The notes under the pieces: generated by a model | What the model was told of the DNA's origin: nothing | Databases searched by the model: none | Seen by the model: the letters and a program-made list of their open reading frames with translations, nothing else | Shown here: positions 4,065 through 62,675 of the stretch, one piece after another | Position numbering within the stretch: position 1 is the first letter of the stretch | Layout: each line of letters starts with the position of its first letter | Assembly: GCA_040882285.1 (NCBI GenBank) | Contig: JBBEBQ010000025.1 | Location: forward strand, 1-64,000 | Origin: Gemmatimonadaceae bacterium | GTDB lineage: Bacteria; Gemmatimonadota; Gemmatimonadetes; Gemmatimonadales; Gemmatimonadaceae | DNA length: 64,000 nucleotides | Direction: 5' to 3' | Made by a program: the position numbers and the translations under genes

Positions 4065-4346
4065 ATGGCAGAGATGACGGGCACTCGCACGGAAGTCCGG
4101 AACGCGCGGAAGACGCGCATCGGGCTGGTCGTGAGCGACAAGATGCAGAAGACGGTGGTCGTAGCGATCGAGCGCCGCGTTCCGCATCCGGTGTACGGCA
4201 AGATGGTGACTCGCACCCGCCGGCTTAAGGCGCACGACGAGCAGAACGAGGCGAAGACCGGCGACACGGTGCGCATCATGGAGACGCGCCCCCTGTCGAA
4301 GGACAAGCGCTGGCGGCTGGTGGAGATCGTCGAGCGGGCCAGGTAG
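4065..4346 (+). CDS. rpsQ: 30S ribosomal protein S17 (uS17)
   Basis: S17 is an early-assembling 16S rRNA binder of the OB-fold type. The 93-residue protein includes [20 protein letters not shown], the [14 protein letters not shown] loop and [20 protein letters not shown], all hallmarks. A good SD (GGAGAGAG) precedes the ATG. Its TAG stop is the first three bases of a TAGTGAC heptamer array. Confidence 0.97.
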
Positions 4347-4374
4347 TGACTGGTGACTAGTGACTAGTCACTAC
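4344..4374 (+). repeat. Heptamer array TAGTGAC inside the ribosomal operon
   Basis: Units TAGTGAC, TGGTGAC, TAGTGAC run directly into the inverse unit TAGTCAC, making the 12-bp palindrome GTGACTAGTCAC at 4360-4371. The first TAG is the rpsQ stop codon. The array occupies most of the rpsQ-rplN gap and belongs to the same GTGACTA family as the loci near 13529, 39298, 44217 and 60712. Confidence 0.85.
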
Positions 4375-5187: not shown

Positions 5188-5907
5188 ATGGCTGAGACCA
5201 AAGAGAAGAAGGCCGGCGCCGACAAGGCCGCGGGCAAGAGCGGCAAGGGCAAGGGCGGCGCGGGCAAGGCGCAGAAGGACGGCGTCCAGGTCCAGGCCGA
5301 GCACGCCGGCGCGGGACTGCCCGTGCCGCCTGCGCGGCTCAAGCTCCACTACCAGACTCAGATCCGCGAGCGGCTGATGTCGCAGTTCGGCTTCAAGAAC
5401 GTGCACCAGGCGCCGACGGTCTCGAAGATCGTCGTCAATTGCGGCGTGGGGGAGGCGACGAAGAACGCGAAGGTGCTCGACACGATCGTGTCGGAGCTCG
5501 CGATCATCACCGGCCAGCGCCCGGTTCGCCGCAAGGCCAGGAAGTCGATCTCGAACTTCGGGCTGCGCGAGGGCCAGGAGATCGGCGCGTCGGTGACGCT
5601 CCGCGGCGCGCGCATGTGGGAGTTCCTCGACCGCCTGATCACGGTCGCGATCCCGCGGGTGCGCGATTTCCGCGGCCTGCCGACGCGCGGCTTCGACGGG
5701 CGCGGCAACTACACGCTCGGCGTGAAGGAGCAAATGATCTTCCCGGAGATCAACTACGACATGGTGGACAAGGTCCACGGCATGGACATCACGTTCGTCA
5801 CGACGACGAACCGCGACGACGTCGCGATCGCGCTGCTGCGGCATCTGGGGATGCCGTTCCGGGGCGACGACAGGGCAGCGGCGAACAAACAAACAGCTAG
5901 CAGCTAG
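5188..5907 (+). CDS. rplE: 50S ribosomal protein L5 (uL5) with N-terminal Lys/Ala-rich extension
   Basis: L5 binds 5S rRNA and contacts the P-site tRNA. The family part starts near residue 50 ([17 protein letters not shown]) and includes [44 protein letters not shown] and FPEINYD. Residues 1-48 are an unusual extension rich in Lys, Gly and Ala ([18 protein letters not shown]). The last residues (NKQTASS) are encoded by a CAGCTAG repeat that also provides the TAG stop. At 239 residues it is about 55 longer than typical. Confidence 0.96.
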
Positions 5908-5914
5908 CAGCTAG
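5894..5914 (+). repeat. Heptamer array CAGCTAG x3 overlapping the rplE stop
   Basis: Three exact CAGCTAG units span the end of rplE and the start of the gap to rpsZ. The second unit's TAG is the rplE stop codon, so the C-terminal Thr-Ala-Ser-Ser is repeat-encoded. The flanks (ACAAACAAACAG and CAACGAACAACAG) are also locally repetitive. Confidence 0.85.
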
Positions 5915-5934
5915 CAACGAACAACAGAGACCAT

Positions 5935-6127: not shown

Positions 6128-6189
6128 GCTATTGGCTATTGGCTATTGGCTCTTAGCTAGCCAACAGCCAACAGCCAACAGCTAACAGC
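6128..6189 (+). repeat. Heptamer hairpin: ATTGGCT x3 facing AGCCAAC x3
   Basis: After GCT, three ATTGGCT units (6131-6151) are followed by a 7-nt loop (CTTAGCT, 6152-6158) and then AGCCAAC x3 (6159-6179), AGCTAAC and AGC. The arms are complementary with one A-C mismatch per heptad, giving a ~21-bp stem inside the rpsZ-rpsH gap of a ribosomal operon. No T-tract follows, so it is not an ordinary intrinsic terminator. Confidence 0.85.
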
Positions 6190-10370: not shown

Positions 10371-10404
10371 GATTCTGCGTTTGTATGCGCGCGTCGGCTG
10401 CGGT

Positions 10405-10560
10405 TCCGGGTCCCGCTCCGGCGGCTAGCTTCGCTCGGTCGGAGCCTCGCGGAGCGAGTCTCCTCGGTTGCTCAGACGCCGCTGGCGGGGACCCGGACAC
10501 CGCCGCCGACCCGGGCATCGGAGCCGATGCTGTAACGCGCCGCCGGAGCGCTTCCGCTCC
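10405..10560 (+). other. Cluster of strong hairpins in the secY-adk gap
   Basis: The 246-nt gap contains nested inverted repeats. A long stem pairs 10405-10425 with 10478-10497 (TCCGGGTCCC against GGGACCCGGA, extended imperfectly by GGCGGC/GCCGC). An inner pair, TCGCTC (10431-10436)/GAGCGA (10453-10458), lies inside it. Two separate small hairpins follow: GCATCGG-AG-CCGATGC at 10515-10530, and GGAGCG-CTTC-CGCTCC at about 10545-10560. No U-tract follows any of them. They could be a processed or attenuating mRNA region; no known RNA family was recognised. Confidence 0.6.
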
Positions 10561-10578
10561 AACCTTGTGCGGGCGAAC

Positions 10579-10609
10579 GGCCAACAGCTAACAGCCAACA
10601 GCCAAGAGC
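10579..10609 (+). repeat. Heptamer array AGCCAAC x4 upstream of adk
   Basis: Four units (GGCCAAC, AGCTAAC, AGCCAAC, AGCCAAG) plus AGC end 7 nt before the adk GTG. The order AGCCAAC-AGCCAAG-AGC is the same as at 1966-1982 before rpsS, so both loci carry one element, and in both it displaces a normal ribosome binding site. Confidence 0.85.
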
Positions 10610-10616
10610 GTTCTCA

Positions 10617-13514: not shown

Positions 13515-13528
13515 GGGGCGTAAGATAA

Positions 13529-13570
13529 GTGACTAGTGACTAGTGACTAGTGACTAGTGACTAGTCACTG
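13529..13570 (-). repeat. Heptamer array of five GTGACTA units between ftcD and suhB
   Basis: Five uninterrupted GTGACTA units (13529-13563) are followed by GTCACTG, with the palindrome GTGACTAGTCAC at 13557-13568. Read on the minus strand, the direction of both flanking genes, it is GCAGTGAC followed by TAGTCAC units. The TGA stop codon of the inositol monophosphatase (13567-13565) lies in the first of these. The GCAGT edge is the same one that begins the right arms at 39388, 44265 and 60769. Confidence 0.88.
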
Positions 13571-14377: not shown

Positions 14378-14409
14378 GGGATCCGTCTGTTTTGTCGTTC
14401 AGGCTGGAC

Positions 14410-14650
14410 TCTGCGTAAAGGCGACCTCCACGAATTCGGAGGAGGGATCCGAGCTGTTGGCGGTGAGTCGAACAATCAGTTGAGAGCGGGAAGTAAGACA
14501 AGCGGAGCACCAGTGTTGAGCCATAAGTACTGGCACGGCTCAGAACTTGGCAGTCCCGAAGCGTACTTCCTGCTGTCCACTAATCAACTCACGGCTAACA
14601 GCTTGGATTCCCTTGCCACCCAATCATGGGCAGCGTACAAGCAAGCTAAC
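14410..14650 (+). repeat. ~240-bp imperfect palindrome filling the suhB-trpS gap
   Basis: Nearly the whole gap folds on itself around 14529. Paired segments found by eye: GAGCC (14518-14522)/GGCTC (14537-14541); GGAAGTA (14489-14495)/TACTTCC (14564-14570); AGCTGTTGGCGGTGAG (14452-14467)/CTCACGGCTAACAGCT (14588-14603), with two mismatches; and GGGATCC (14444-14450)/GGATTCCC (14605-14612). Weaker similarity extends outward on both sides. Paired coordinates keep a constant sum (29055-29059), so this is one continuous structure. The stretch is visibly less GC-rich than its neighbours. It could be a MITE-like element or a large folded RNA leader of trpS. Confidence 0.65.
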
Positions 14651-14668
14651 GCCTAAATTCTCTCCCCA

Positions 14669-39297: not shown

Positions 39298-39457
39298 GTG
39301 ACTAGTGACTAGTGACTGGTGACTAGTAACAGATCTTTTCCAGCCGATAGTGACTCATGGCCGCAAAGTGCATAGCTTCGAAGTTGCAGTTCACTAGTCA
39401 CTAGTCACTAGTCACTAGTCACTAGTCACTAGTCACTAGTCACTAATCACTAGTCAC
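39298..39457 (+). repeat. Large heptamer-repeat hairpin after priA
   Basis: Left arm: GTGACTA, GTGACTA, GTGACTG, GTGACTA and GTAAC (39298-39330). Then ~58 nt of non-repeat sequence. Right arm: GCAGTTCAC followed by nine units of TAGTCAC (39395-39457), the eighth being TAATCAC. The arms can pair over at least four heptads, and the right arm has about five units in excess. The left GTAAC edge and right GCAGT edge are shared with the loci at 44217 and 60712. It fills the whole priA-39462 gap. Confidence 0.9.
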
Positions 39458-44216: not shown

Positions 44217-44300
44217 GTGACTAGTGATTAGTGACTAGTGACTAGTAACTGCTTTCTGTTTGTTGCAGTAACTAGTCACTAGCCACTAGTCACCAGTCAC
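44217..44300 (+). repeat. Heptamer-repeat hairpin between convergent genes
   Basis: Left arm GTGACTA, GTGATTA, GTGACTA, GTGACTA, GTAACTG (44217-44251); a 14-nt loop (44252-44265); right arm CAGTAAC, TAGTCAC, TAGCCAC, TAGTCAC, CAGTCAC (44266-44300). The arms pair over 35 positions with few mismatches. The left arm is identical in unit order to the one at 60712. It lies between two genes that converge on it, with no T-tract. Confidence 0.9.
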
Positions 44301-58094: not shown

Positions 58095-59292
58095 AGCGAA
58101 TCGTGAAGCCCGCTTCCGCGAGAGTCCTGTCCCATGCCAGCCGGATGCGCCCTCCGCCTCCCTCAGGCACGAGGGCGATGGTGAAGGTCTCCACGACTTC
58201 GCTCGATTCGCGCACGCGCATCGGGATCCGCGCGATTACCATTGCCGGGTCGACGGCGCTGCTTCCCCACTGGCCGGTTTGCCGGCTCACGAGCAGCGTC
58301 CAGCTGTCCGGCGACGGAATGGTATGCAGCGTGTACGTGCCGGCCGGAACGACCGCCGCGCCGAACTGAAGGTCGCGGCTCGTCGTGAAATGGGTGGCGA
58401 GATTGGCGCCGGTGCGCCAGACAGTGTTCCAGGGCACGACGTTCCCGAAGATCGTGCGACCGCGCTTCGTCGGACGTCCGTAATCGATAGTCAGCCGCGC
58501 GCCGGCCAGCTCGGCGAGCACGGTGTCGCGCCCCGACAGGCTGCCCACCACTCCCGCCGCGCGCTCCCGCGCGGCGAACGCGCGTGACACCGAGTCGATG
58601 TCGATCCAATCGATGCGGGTTCCGACGTAGCCGAGCGACGAGCCGGTCCCGTCGAGTGCGGCAAGCCGTCCGTCCGGGCCGAGGATGACGCGCATCACCC
58701 CCGAGATCTGGCTCCACAGCGTGACTGTATCCCGCGCGACCCGCTTCACCACCAGCGGATATGCGCCGAGCCGCATGGACATCGTGCCGACGATTGAATC
58801 ACCCACGACGCGTGGCGCCCGCAGGGCCAGCAGAACGTAGTTAGGAAACCACAAGTTCCCCGGCAGCGAGATCACCACGTCCGCGCGATCAGGCAACCTG
58901 AGGAATTGCTTGGCGGCGCCGAGGCCGAGGCTGTAGATCGTGGAGTCGGCGGAGAAGGTGACGGTGGCGCTGTCCCGCGCGATGCCGGCGCGCGGGCTGG
59001 CCGGGTCGAAGGTCGCGACGGCGATGGACGACAGCGTCCCGTCCGGGTTCAGCTTGGCGTCGATCGTCCGGAACGCGGCGGCCGGGGCGCGCACGACCGA
59101 TTCCACGTACATTCTGCCCGGAGTGAGCTCGAATCGCTCGACGAACAGCGTGTCGGGGCCGAGGCGCACTATCAGGGCGCCGCGGTCCGTCCCGGGCGGA
59201 ATCTGCTGCCGCGCCGCGCCGCACGCGGCAGCGGGCACGGTCGCGGCAATCACCACCATTACGGGCGCTATCTTTCGACACAAGCGTTTCAT
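58093..59292 (-). CDS. DUF2911-domain lipoprotein
   Basis: 399 residues. Signal peptide with lipobox (VPAAAC) and start ATG 59292 after AAGGCGG. The N-terminal part (residues ~25-240) is a beta-rich region of unknown family. The C-terminal ~150 residues carry the DUF2911 signature (DYGRPTKRGRTIFG, WRTGANLATHF, PAGTYTLHTIP, TGQWGSSA). DUF2911 proteins are common outer-envelope proteins of Bacteroidetes and soil bacteria with no known activity. Convergent with the beta-barrel gene at a shared terminator. Confidence 0.78.
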   Translation of the reverse strand: MKRLCRKIAPVMVVIAATVPAAACGAARQQIPPGTDRGALIVRLGPDTLFVERFELTPGRMYVESVVRAPAAAFRTIDAKLNPDGTLSSIAVATFDPASPRAGIARDSATVTFSADSTIYSLGLGAAKQFLRLPDRADVVISLPGNLWFPNYVLLALRAPRVVGDSIVGTMSMRLGAYPLVVKRVARDTVTLWSQISGVMRVILGPDGRLAALDGTGSSLGYVGTRIDWIDIDSVSRAFAARERAAGVVGSLSGRDTVLAELAGARLTIDYGRPTKRGRTIFGNVVPWNTVWRTGANLATHFTTSRDLQFGAAVVPAGTYTLHTIPSPDSWTLLVSRQTGQWGSSAVDPAMVIARIPMRVRESSEVVETFTIALVPEGGGGRIRLAWDRTLAEAGFTIR

Positions 59293-59395
59293 GGCGTCCG
59301 CCTTGCGGTCAGGGGTGGTGAATTGCGCATGGGCCAGCGAAGGTTCATGTCGCGCATTCGTCCCGAAACTACACCGAGATCGAGGTTCATACATC

Positions 59396-60715
59396 ATGTG
59401 TTGCATGCGAAGTGAATTCCGGGTGTCCGCCATCGTGGCGATTCTCGCGTCCGCCGGCTGCGCCGCGCAGAACCCGGCCGCCGATCAATCGGGCGCGGCG
59501 ATGCAGCTCGGGCCGGCGTGCGGCACCGCGGGGCTCACGTTGCCCGCCGGGTTCTGCGCGACGATCTTCGCCGACTCCATCGGCGCGGCGCGGCACCTCG
59601 TGGTCGCGCCGAACGGCGACGTGTTCGTGGCGCTGCAGCAGGCGCGGCGGAACTCGGCGGTCGAGGGCATCCCGCCCGGGGTCATGGCGCTGCGCGACAC
59701 GAACGGGGATGGCGTCGCCGACGTCAGGCAAAGGTTCGGATCGGCCGGGAACACCGGAATCGCGCTGCACGGCGACTTTCTGTACGCCGACGTCGGCACC
59801 GCCATCGTCCGCTACCCCAAGCCCGCCGGCGCGCTGACGCCGACCGGAGCGCCGGACACGGTGGTGAAGGGGATGCCGTACACGCCGGGACACCGCGCGC
59901 GAAACTTCGTGATCGCGAGCGACGGGTCGCTGTACGTGAACATCGGCTCGCCGACGAACGCGTGCCAGGTGCAGGATCGGCAGCGCGGGTCGCCGGGAGT
60001 GAGCCCGTGCGCGGAGCTCGAGCGGCGCGCGGGGATCTGGCGGTTCGCCGCGAACAGGCTCGGCCAGGAGTTCAGCCCCGGCGCGAGGTTCGCGACGGGG
60101 ATCCGCAACGCGACCGGCCTGGCGATCAACCCCGGCGACGGCACGCTGTATGCGGCGAGTCACGGCCGCGACAATCTCTCCTCCAACTGGCCTGAGCACT
60201 TCACGGAGCAGCAGAACGCGGAGCTGCCCGCGGAAGAGCTGCTGCGCGTGACGCGCGGGGACGATTTCGGCTGGCCGTACTGCTACTGGGACGGCCAGAA
60301 GAGAGTGCGCGTGCTGGCTCCGGAATACGGCGGCGACGGCAGCCAGGTCGGCTTGTGCGCGACGAAGAGGGGGAACGTGGCCGCGATGCCGGCGCACTGG
60401 GCGCCGAACGCGCTGACTTTCTACACGGGCTCGATGTTCCCGGCGAAGTATCGCGGGGGCGCGTTCATCGCGTTCCACGGCTCGTGGAACCGCGCGCCGC
60501 TCCCGCAGGGCGGCTACAACGTCGTGCTCGTCCCGTTCACCAACAACACCAGCAACGGCGCCTGGGAAGTTTTCGCCACCGGCTTCGTCCCGGCCGACGT
60601 GCAGCCGAGCACCGCGCGGCACAGGCCGAGCGGCGTGGCGCAGGGACCGGACGGCGCGCTGTTCGTGACGGATGACGTCAGCGGGCGGGTTTGGAGGATC
60701 ACTTACCGGAAGTGA
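59396..60715 (+). CDS. Sorbosone/glucose dehydrogenase-type beta-propeller lipoprotein
   Basis: 439 residues. Signal peptide ending in lipobox (ASAGC), then a six-bladed propeller: ARHLVVAPNGDVFVAL, RDTNGDGVADV, GRDNLSSNWPEHFTEQQNAELP, DDFGWPYCYWDGQKR, and RHRPSGVAQGPDGALFVTDD. This is the PQQ-dependent L-sorbosone/glucose dehydrogenase family; PQQ use is inferred. Four Cys pairs suggest disulfides in the periplasm. ATG 59396 has GAGG at 10 nt; ATG 59405 is an alternative. Its TGA stop is inside the first GTGACTA unit. Confidence 0.82.
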   Translation: MCCMRSEFRVSAIVAILASAGCAAQNPAADQSGAAMQLGPACGTAGLTLPAGFCATIFADSIGAARHLVVAPNGDVFVALQQARRNSAVEGIPPGVMALRDTNGDGVADVRQRFGSAGNTGIALHGDFLYADVGTAIVRYPKPAGALTPTGAPDTVVKGMPYTPGHRARNFVIASDGSLYVNIGSPTNACQVQDRQRGSPGVSPCAELERRAGIWRFAANRLGQEFSPGARFATGIRNATGLAINPGDGTLYAASHGRDNLSSNWPEHFTEQQNAELPAEELLRVTRGDDFGWPYCYWDGQKRVRVLAPEYGGDGSQVGLCATKRGNVAAMPAHWAPNALTFYTGSMFPAKYRGGAFIAFHGSWNRAPLPQGGYNVVLVPFTNNTSNGAWEVFATGFVPADVQPSTARHRPSGVAQGPDGALFVTDDVSGRVWRITYRK

Positions 60716-60804
60716 CTAGTGATTAGTGACTAGTGACTAGTAACCGCCGGCTAGCGAAGCGTCTCGGTGCAGTCACTAGTCACTAGTCACTAATCACTAG
60801 TCAC
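60712..60804 (+). repeat. Heptamer-repeat hairpin with a perfect 28-bp stem
   Basis: Left arm GTGACTA, GTGATTA, GTGACTA, GTGACTA (60712-60739); right arm TAGTCAC, TAGTCAC, TAATCAC, TAGTCAC (60777-60804). The right arm is the exact reverse complement of the left over all 28 bases, including the variant GTGATTA/TAATCAC. The 37-nt interval begins GTAAC and ends GCAGTCAC. The first unit holds the dehydrogenase stop codon; it ends 3 nt before the convergent yjbQ stop. Confidence 0.95.
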
Positions 60805-60806
60805 TA

Positions 60807-61229
60807 CTATTCCCCCATCGCCTTGATAACCACCCGCTTCGGCCTCTGCCCGTCCCACTCGCCGTAGAAAACCCTCTGCCAGGGCCCGAAGTCGAGCTCG
60901 CCCTTCGTCACCGGCACGATCACTTCGTGGCCGACAGTCAATGAGCGCAGGTGCGCGGCGGCGTTGTCCTCGCCGGTGCCGGTGTTGTGCCTGTAGGCAT
61001 CCGGGTCCCACGGCGCGATACGCTCCTCGAGCCACTTGAGGATGTCCTGCCAGAGGCCCGACTCGTGATCGTTCACGAAGACGGAGGCGGATATGTGCAT
61101 GGCGGACACCAGCACCATTCCCTCGGTGATCCCGGCCTTCGCGCGACATCCTTCCACGAGATCGGTGATGTCGATGATTTGCTGTCGCTTCTTGGTGGTG
61201 AACGTGTGGTAGGTGGTGTGCGTTTTCAT
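60807..61229 (-). CDS. YjbQ family protein (UPF0047)
   Basis: 140 residues, the normal length for this conserved small family. Typical motifs: KTHTTYHTFTTKKRQQIIDIT, SAMHISASVFVNDHE, YRHNTGTGEDNAAAHLRS, GQRVFYGEWDGQR-type ending (WQRVFYGEWDGQRPKRV). Several family members have weak thiamin-phosphate-synthase-like activity in vitro; a physiological role is not settled. ATG 61229 is chosen as the start of MKTHTTYH; in-frame codons upstream are not conserved. Convergent with the sorbosone-type gene. Confidence 0.9.
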   Translation of the reverse strand: MKTHTTYHTFTTKKRQQIIDITDLVEGCRAKAGITEGMVLVSAMHISASVFVNDHESGLWQDILKWLEERIAPWDPDAYRHNTGTGEDNAAAHLRSLTVGHEVIVPVTKGELDFGPWQRVFYGEWDGQRPKRVVIKAMGE

Positions 61230-61249
61230 GCGGCAAAGTTGGTGAGTAT

Positions 61250-61315
61250 CCAGCAAGCCAGTAAGCCAGTTTGCCAGAGAACACTGGCCTTCTGGCTTAC
61301 GGTCTCACTGGCTGC
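61250..61315 (-). repeat. Octamer-repeat hairpin between yjbQ and the P1 peptidase
   Basis: Units CCAGCAAG, CCAGTAAG, CCAGTTTG, CCAGAGAA (61250-61281) face CTGGCCTT, CTGGCTTA, CGGTCTCA, CTGGCTGC (61284-61315). CCAG and CTGG cores pair in register with an 8-bp period, giving an imperfect ~30-bp stem. The last bases reach the peptidase stop codon. It differs from the GTGACTA family in unit and period but has the same design. Confidence 0.75.
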
Positions 61316-62500: not shown

Positions 62501-62540
62501 GATGGTCAACCTCCAGGGTCGTCCAAATATCCCTATTCTC

Positions 62541-62568
62541 AAAGCTCAGCGCTGATGGCTGACTGCTC
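62541..62568. repeat. Degenerate heptamer repeat ANNGCTS x4
   Basis: Consecutive AAAGCTC, AGCGCTG, ATGGCTG, ACTGCTC share the pattern A-N-N-G-C-T-[CG] with period seven, in the gap between the divergent P1 peptidase and transaldolase genes. Arms are too diverged to form a strong hairpin. It looks like a decayed or variant member of the period-seven class. Confidence 0.5.
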
Positions 62569-62675
62569 ACAGCCCGGATTCCCCGTCCGCATTCCTGGAG
62601 CCACCGAGCCGCGAGACCAAGCACGAAGTTACCTTTGAGGGTATCCCGCACGACGACGCACAAGAGGCAACCGAC

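Follow-up and report, generated by a model that had tools for sequence, protein, structure and literature searches.

The question raised by this locus is what kind of element forms a near-perfect inverted repeat of seven-base units between two convergent genes of a Gemmatimonadaceae bacterium. The window, that is the whole 64,000-nucleotide stretch of DNA that was analysed, corresponds to positions 1 to 64,000 of contig C25 in a genome of 2.89 Mb (27 contigs, 96.6% complete). At 60711-60805, GTGACTA heptamers are arranged in two arms (60711-60747 and 60769-60805) that are 95% complementary over 37 nt and are separated by a spacer of 21 nt; both arms carry the variant GTGATTA. The perfect stem, given as 28 bp in a preliminary description that was otherwise right about the sequence, is in fact 31 bp long, because the fold yields 31 contiguous pairs joining the left arm (60711-60741, plus strand) to the right arm (60775-60805, minus strand) around a core or loop of about 33 nt (60742-60774, AACCGC...GTGCAGTC, no strand assigned). 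Read inwards from the outer ends, the left arm is composed of GTGACTA, GTGATTA, GTGACTA and GTGACTA with a final GT, and the right arm, reverse-complemented, of GTGACTA, GTGATTA, GTGACTA, GTGACTA and GTGACTG, so that the variant is mirrored at unit 2, as had been reported. The RNA fold of 60700-60830 has a predicted energy of -66.3 kcal/mol (z -10.5), and the DNA fold of the hairpin reaches -37.1 kcal/mol (z -11.95), a value equalled by 0 of 200 shuffles.

The element itself contains no ORF. Its left arm overlaps the TGA stop of the upstream gene (58940-60715, plus strand), which has a weak glucose/sorbosone dehydrogenase domain (PF07995), and its right arm finishes directly before the stop of the convergent UPF0047 gene (PF01894; 60807-61229, minus strand, in an ORF of 60807-61256 whose called start is uncertain). 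Neither a T-tract terminator nor a sigma-70-like promoter was found at the hairpin, and an Rfam search of the 64-kb window returned no match. The combination of a GC-rich hairpin and a following T-tract that defines an intrinsic terminator is missing at this site, in agreement with the earlier view that this is not a standard terminator.

The hairpin is one of many dispersed copies in this bacterium of what looks like a selfish DNA element. The sequence GTGACTAGTGACTA occurs 282 times (130 + 152) in this genome (G000); two congeners have 20 + 20 and 39 + 31 occurrences, and 56 genomes of 34 other genera have 0. These figures include overlapping units and are therefore not numbers of elements. 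The preliminary description had isolated a real structure, but as a single hairpin; it had missed the multicopy family to which it belongs, the presence of such arms around PF05635 genes, and a stem plan that is that of the 23S rRNA intervening sequences (IVSs). In sampled stretches totalling about 582 kb of the ~2.9-Mb genome, intergenic arrays with period 7 numbered 85, against 7 for all other periods from 4 to 13 (period 14 being taken as two sevens). These period-7 arrays occupy 51 intergenic gaps and fall into several coexisting classes, of which GTGACTA is the largest, together with TTGGCTA/TTGGCTG, GCTGCGT and CAGCTAG. The flanking genes of the 51 gaps are oriented minus-minus in 21 cases, plus-plus in 17, minus-plus in 7 and plus-minus in 6; since the gene calls come from a simple caller of our own, start positions are approximate. 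Among array edges lying at most 40 nt from a stop codon, 35 of 41 were within 11 nt of it. On another contig (G000:C5:257336-258521), five heptamer arrays belonging to several classes lie scattered among tRNA-like sequences.

The window itself is rich in such arrays, with 53 occurrences of GTGACTAGTGACTA at two mismatches or fewer against 0.04 expected. A second paired GTGACTA hairpin lies between convergent genes at 44217-44300 (no strand assigned), and at this site (about 44213) the congener G006 has GGTATCA arms and G059 GTGATCA arms. A third, at 39298-39457 (no strand assigned), has arms of 4 and 9 units, and the counterpart of its left arm in the congener G039 is a long array of GTGATTA units. 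The GTGACTA array at 13528-13569 (plus strand), whose last unit is inverted, is also made of GTGATTA in G039. A short GTGACTA palindrome at 4344-4373 (plus strand) is placed amid ribosomal-protein genes and has related arrays in four of four species, and a CAGCTAG array (5894-5916, plus strand) lies between ribosomal protein genes. After a small S14-like gene, a paired hairpin of the TTGGCTA class (6128-6189, no strand assigned) has both its arms in common with two four-helix-bundle elements, L103 and L106. Two single-arm AGCCAAC arrays, both on the plus strand, were found at 1952-1982, where G006 has a complete paired hairpin at the orthologous site, and at 10572-10609, where G006 has a TAGTCAC array.

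Further structures were observed in or opposite the window. The long intergenic stretch at 10371-10616 contains imperfect inverted repeats (GGCTAGCTTCGCTCGGTCGGAGCC ... CTCCTCGGTCGCTCAGACGCC) that precede the heptamer array, are conserved in all four congeners and have no Rfam match; it is possibly a structured RNA. An imperfect hairpin of another subfamily, ending near GGGATCC/GGGAATCC, is present at 14378-14668 and in the orthologous gap of G006; its ends resemble those of the four-helix-bundle elements L112, L116, L127 and L173, it is missing at that place in G039, and G059 has there a different element of GGTTAAC type. Directly past the UPF0047 gene, a small paired repeat of CCAGTAAG / CTTACTGG type (61230-61315) corresponds to TTGGCTG arrays in G039 and G006, and the stretch at 62501-62675 resembles a lone remaining arm terminating in CGGATTCCCC. 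In G006, an IS-like element with termini GGCACTAATATACTTGACACACC / GGTGTGTCAAGTATATTAATGCC (L069, G006:C93) lies within a GTGACTA array at the place orthologous to 13515-13564.

Comparison with the congeners shows how the 60711 site differs between them. In G039 the site holds GTGATTA/GTGATGA arms around a different core, which by eye could not be aligned with the core at 60711; in G006 the arms are GGTATCA; in G059 there is no element and the two flanking genes abut. At certain sites, then, the hairpin plan is retained although its unit and core differ, which may reflect either replacement or evolution in place. Gap occupancy was scored in the same way for each pair of genomes: with G039, 7 gaps are occupied in both, 0 and 2 in one only and 32 in neither; with G006, 6 in both, 1 and 1 in one only and 31 in neither; with G059, 1 in both, 7 and 1 in one only and 30 in neither. 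Occupied places are common to this genome and to G039 and G006 beyond chance, and the sharing with G059 is not significant. Such sharing may go back to old insertions or to evolution in place. Across the genome, it is the 7-base unit that turns over very fast and the hairpin plan that stays.

From the matched variant it had been argued that the arms arose by inverted duplication of an arm, by copying of a palindromic unit or under selection for the stem, and a check for covariation of unit variants between arms at other loci had been proposed. This check was run on 17 GTGACTA hairpins, where 3 unit positions had the same variant in both arms, 4 had different variants in the two arms and 29 had a variant in one arm only; the 3 matches among 36 variant positions are not significantly more than permutation gives (P = 0.17). 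At other loci the two arms mostly vary independently of each other; the match at 60711 is therefore atypical of the family, and the inference drawn from it is not supported. Selection for an RNA stem is likewise unsupported, because on the transcribed strand stem mismatches of G-U type (34) and of A-C type (37) are equally frequent. Copying of a palindromic unit, on the other hand, fits one clear case: a 106-bp element at 117.7 kb of contig C7 (G000) recurs in inverse orientation at 139.6 kb of the same contig with 89.6% identity that does not extend past the arms, and G006 has a third copy. In a masked-core comparison of a wider set, these three (L018, L019 and L051) were the only set with a shared core and no shared flanks. 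The cores of most GTGACTA hairpins are unrelated, as would be expected from fast turnover of the core or from gene conversion no less than from transposition.

A partner gene came to light in two 539-bp gaps with heptamer arms, each of which hid an overlooked ORF of the PF05635 family. The loop ORF product matches PF05635 (23S rRNA intervening-sequence protein, S23p; E 9.5e-37) and TIGR02436 (four-helix-bundle protein; E 8.7e-35), and its nearest solved relative is the Xanthomonas protein 2GSC (E 1.6e-24); the Xanthomonas S23p structure is a homopentamer of four-helix bundles (cited in PMC4990558). Each of four congeneric genomes has 10-14 PF05635 matches. Clear period-7 arrays flank the gene on one or both sides at 10 of 30 PF05635 loci (L101-L106, L115, L119, L120 and L124), and inverted arms scoring 17-50 are found at most of 29 congeneric loci, against mostly 8-15 in controls, one of which reached 34; these arms are 7-periodic even where degenerate. 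Between orthologous copies the protein has a dN/dS of 0.05-0.11, indicating purifying selection. In one such four-helix-bundle element (L115, G059:C193), a tandem duplication takes in the right arm and the sequence next to it.

Several observations connect these genes with the dispersed arrays. Protein distance and arm composition distance are correlated (Mantel r 0.47, 0 of 5000 permutations), a value that related pairs may inflate. By what seems to be the same flanking gene, the gene-bearing copy has GTGACTA arms in G000 (L101, in which one arm is complete and the other reduced to a remnant), GTGATTA arms in G039 (L120) and GTGATCA arms in G059 (L102). The G000 sample has 69 dispersed doublets of GTGACTA and 5 of GTGATTA, whereas 44 kb of G039 has 19 of GTGATTA and 2 of GTGACTA; the G059 sample, also of 44 kb, has only 2 GTGATCA doublets. 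In G000 and G039, the unit of the dispersed arrays is thus that of the gene-bearing copy. Moreover, an ORF-less element of G059 has both ends in common with the gene-bearing L119, and gene-less gaps of the present genome share both arms with L103/L105/L106, L116/L127, L122/L130 and L124, although within an element one arm is a copy of the other, so that a match of both does not count as two independent facts.

The association extends beyond the genus. A PF05635 gene is present in 47 of 59 genomes of the family of the source bacterium. Scanning 84,980 species genomes turned up 66 PF05635-type loci in Chloroflexi, Acidobacteria, Bacteroidota, Nitrospira, Planctomycetes, Verrucomicrobia, Actinobacteria, Firmicutes and others; the search pattern, derived from sequences of the congeners, covers one part of the protein family. 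Arm scores of at least 17 were obtained at 22 of 59 PF05635 loci (congeners included) and at 1 of 57 controls, the scores at many cross-phylum loci being modest. In each of the three locus groups, the autocorrelation of the arms has its peaks at lags 7 and 14. When arms are ignored, the best lag between 4 and 13 is 7 in 42 of 58 flanks from other phyla against 4 of 28 controls, and in 21 of 34 flanks from other Gemmatimonadota against 2 of 16. One Pirellulales genome (G067) has a gene-bearing element (L225) with arms of AGTTNNC type; AGTTNNC triple units number 329 there and 0 in a control genome; part of these hairpins sit in a separate TIR element, and the count is therefore no measure of independent mobility. 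A repeated element of this genome (L219, L221, L223, L224 and L228-L230) has ends TATACTCAACGCGGTCAAGAATTGAGGTTTTCGGATT and a conserved core and encloses the heptamer hairpin.

Taken together, we consider the 60711 hairpin to be a MITE-like element without ORF that belongs to a dispersed family of IVS/four-helix-bundle hairpins, with a probability of about 0.72. An element of this family consists of two inverted tandem-heptamer arms around a loop, which in full-length members encodes the four-helix-bundle protein (PF05635/TIGR02436, S23p); the elements lie between genes, often directly at stop codons. The protein may recognise the heptamer arms, and the elements may spread or be homogenised in trans with a host enzyme. 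As in MITEs, the elements are short and have inverted termini in common with a gene-bearing partner in the genome. Occurrence of the same element at unrelated places was seen for L018, L019 and L051 only and not for the 60711 element, and the partner encodes a four-helix-bundle protein, for which we know of no catalytic role, instead of a transposase. No significant target-site duplication was detected at 17 elements (P = 0.066), nor any clean insertion with duplication. Mobility based on a reverse transcriptase was rejected, the RVT_1 model (PF00078) matching in one only (G006) of the four congeneric genomes.

The arrays could also have been built by local slippage and template switching in intergenic inverted repeats and homogenised by ectopic gene conversion, with the four-helix-bundle genes merely sitting in some of them. 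This explanation, which we regard as rather unlikely, accounts well for the fast change of copy number and units, for shared arms with mostly unrelated cores, for the many identical GTGATTA units that follow one another in an arm in G039 and for places occupied in several species; it accounts poorly for the predominance of period 7 over all other periods, for lag-7 flanks that track PF05635 genes across phyla, for a whole 106-bp element at unrelated places and for the correlated divergence of arm and protein. A selected RNA structure, acting as a bidirectional terminator, a stabiliser of mRNA 3' ends or an RNase III processing site, is improbable: the very stable 60711 stem, its position between convergent genes and the closeness of array edges to stop codons would suit it, but there is no T-tract, the G-U and A-C mismatches on the sense strand are balanced, G059 does without the element at this locus, and 38 of the 51 array-bearing gaps are co-directional, ribosomal protein genes being among them. 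A terminator of convergent genes in particular was rejected, only 6 of the 51 gaps being convergent.

Movement by a REP-associated tyrosine transposase, as for REPINs, is very improbable despite the paired inverted units, variable spacer, length of about 100 bp, intergenic position and high copy number, because Y1_Tnp (PF01797, TnpA-REP) is absent from all four congeneric genomes and did match in control genomes. Some contigs end in arrays (for example G000:C3), as an assembly artefact could produce, yet hairpins at orthologous places in independently assembled congeners and in other phyla make this origin, which the preliminary description had considered, scarcely credible.

A dispersed, MITE-like family of this kind was not found described in the literature, subscription journals being poorly covered, so that this absence is weak evidence. 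Its closest known kin is the IVS of Coxiella burnetii, a 428-nt insertion in helix 45 of 23S rRNA. It combines an S23p ORF with a stem of 28 bp and with GACAGAT heptamers, of which two to three stand in tandem depending on the strain; a remnant transposon or mobile element is among the origin hypotheses of the authors (PMC4990558). The elements described here have the same terminal inverted repeats, tandem heptamers in the arms and long stem (~28 bp in Coxiella) and, in gene-bearing members, the PF05635/TIGR02436 loop ORF; they differ in being dispersed between protein-coding genes, not inside 23S rRNA (helix 9, 25 or 45), and in their many copies, several heptamer classes per genome and ORF-less majority. 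ORF-less short forms exist for 23S IVSs too. Because stem, ORF and heptamers agree and location does not, the dispersed elements are not 23S IVSs, but they work like them and are probably related to them.

Among other 7-base repeats, the TAACTGA repeats of Beggiatoaceae, Cyanobacteria and Bacteroidetes are almost only direct repeats and have been read as regulatory (MacGregor 2015, PMC4679880). Like the present arrays, they are intergenic, lie over stop codons or just before starts and place stops in all frames of one strand, and AGTTATC arrays, the reverse complement of a TAACTGA array, occur in the Pirellulales genome whose four-helix-bundle element bears such arms. No link to four-helix-bundle genes was drawn in that study (MacGregor 2015, PMC4679880); we propose that the two may be tied. 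REPIN/REP sequences with their RAYT resemble the present elements in the inverted pair around a spacer, the length of about 100 bp, the intergenic position and the high copy number, and differ in that this genus is without Y1_Tnp and has heptad arms in place of the REP palindrome. The four-helix-bundle protein has a weak similarity, below cut-off, to Avd of diversity-generating retroelements (NF033474, E 2.4e-4); a point of difference is the reverse transcriptase (PF00078), found in just one of the four genomes. The cyanobacterial STRR heptanucleotide repeats, whose likeness had been suggested from the first and is borne out, are also 7-base tandem arrays between genes; to our knowledge, they do not occur as hairpin pairs that enclose PF05635 genes.

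What 23S rRNA IVSs and the S23p protein do, and where they come from, has been an open question for decades, and heptamer repeats of several phyla have so far been described singly, with no agent named. We tentatively suggest, with somewhat less than even confidence, that four-helix-bundle/IVP genes may constitute a broad class of mobile elements without transposase, which would recognise heptad hairpin arms and spread through them; the 7-base families of Gemmatimonadota, Planctomycetes and Chloroflexi, and perhaps of Beggiatoaceae and Cyanobacteria, would then be debris of such elements, and the rRNA IVSs copies that landed in 23S genes. Linking arms, protein and dispersed repeats in this way offers one hypothesis, directly testable, for several unexplained families of 7-base repeats.
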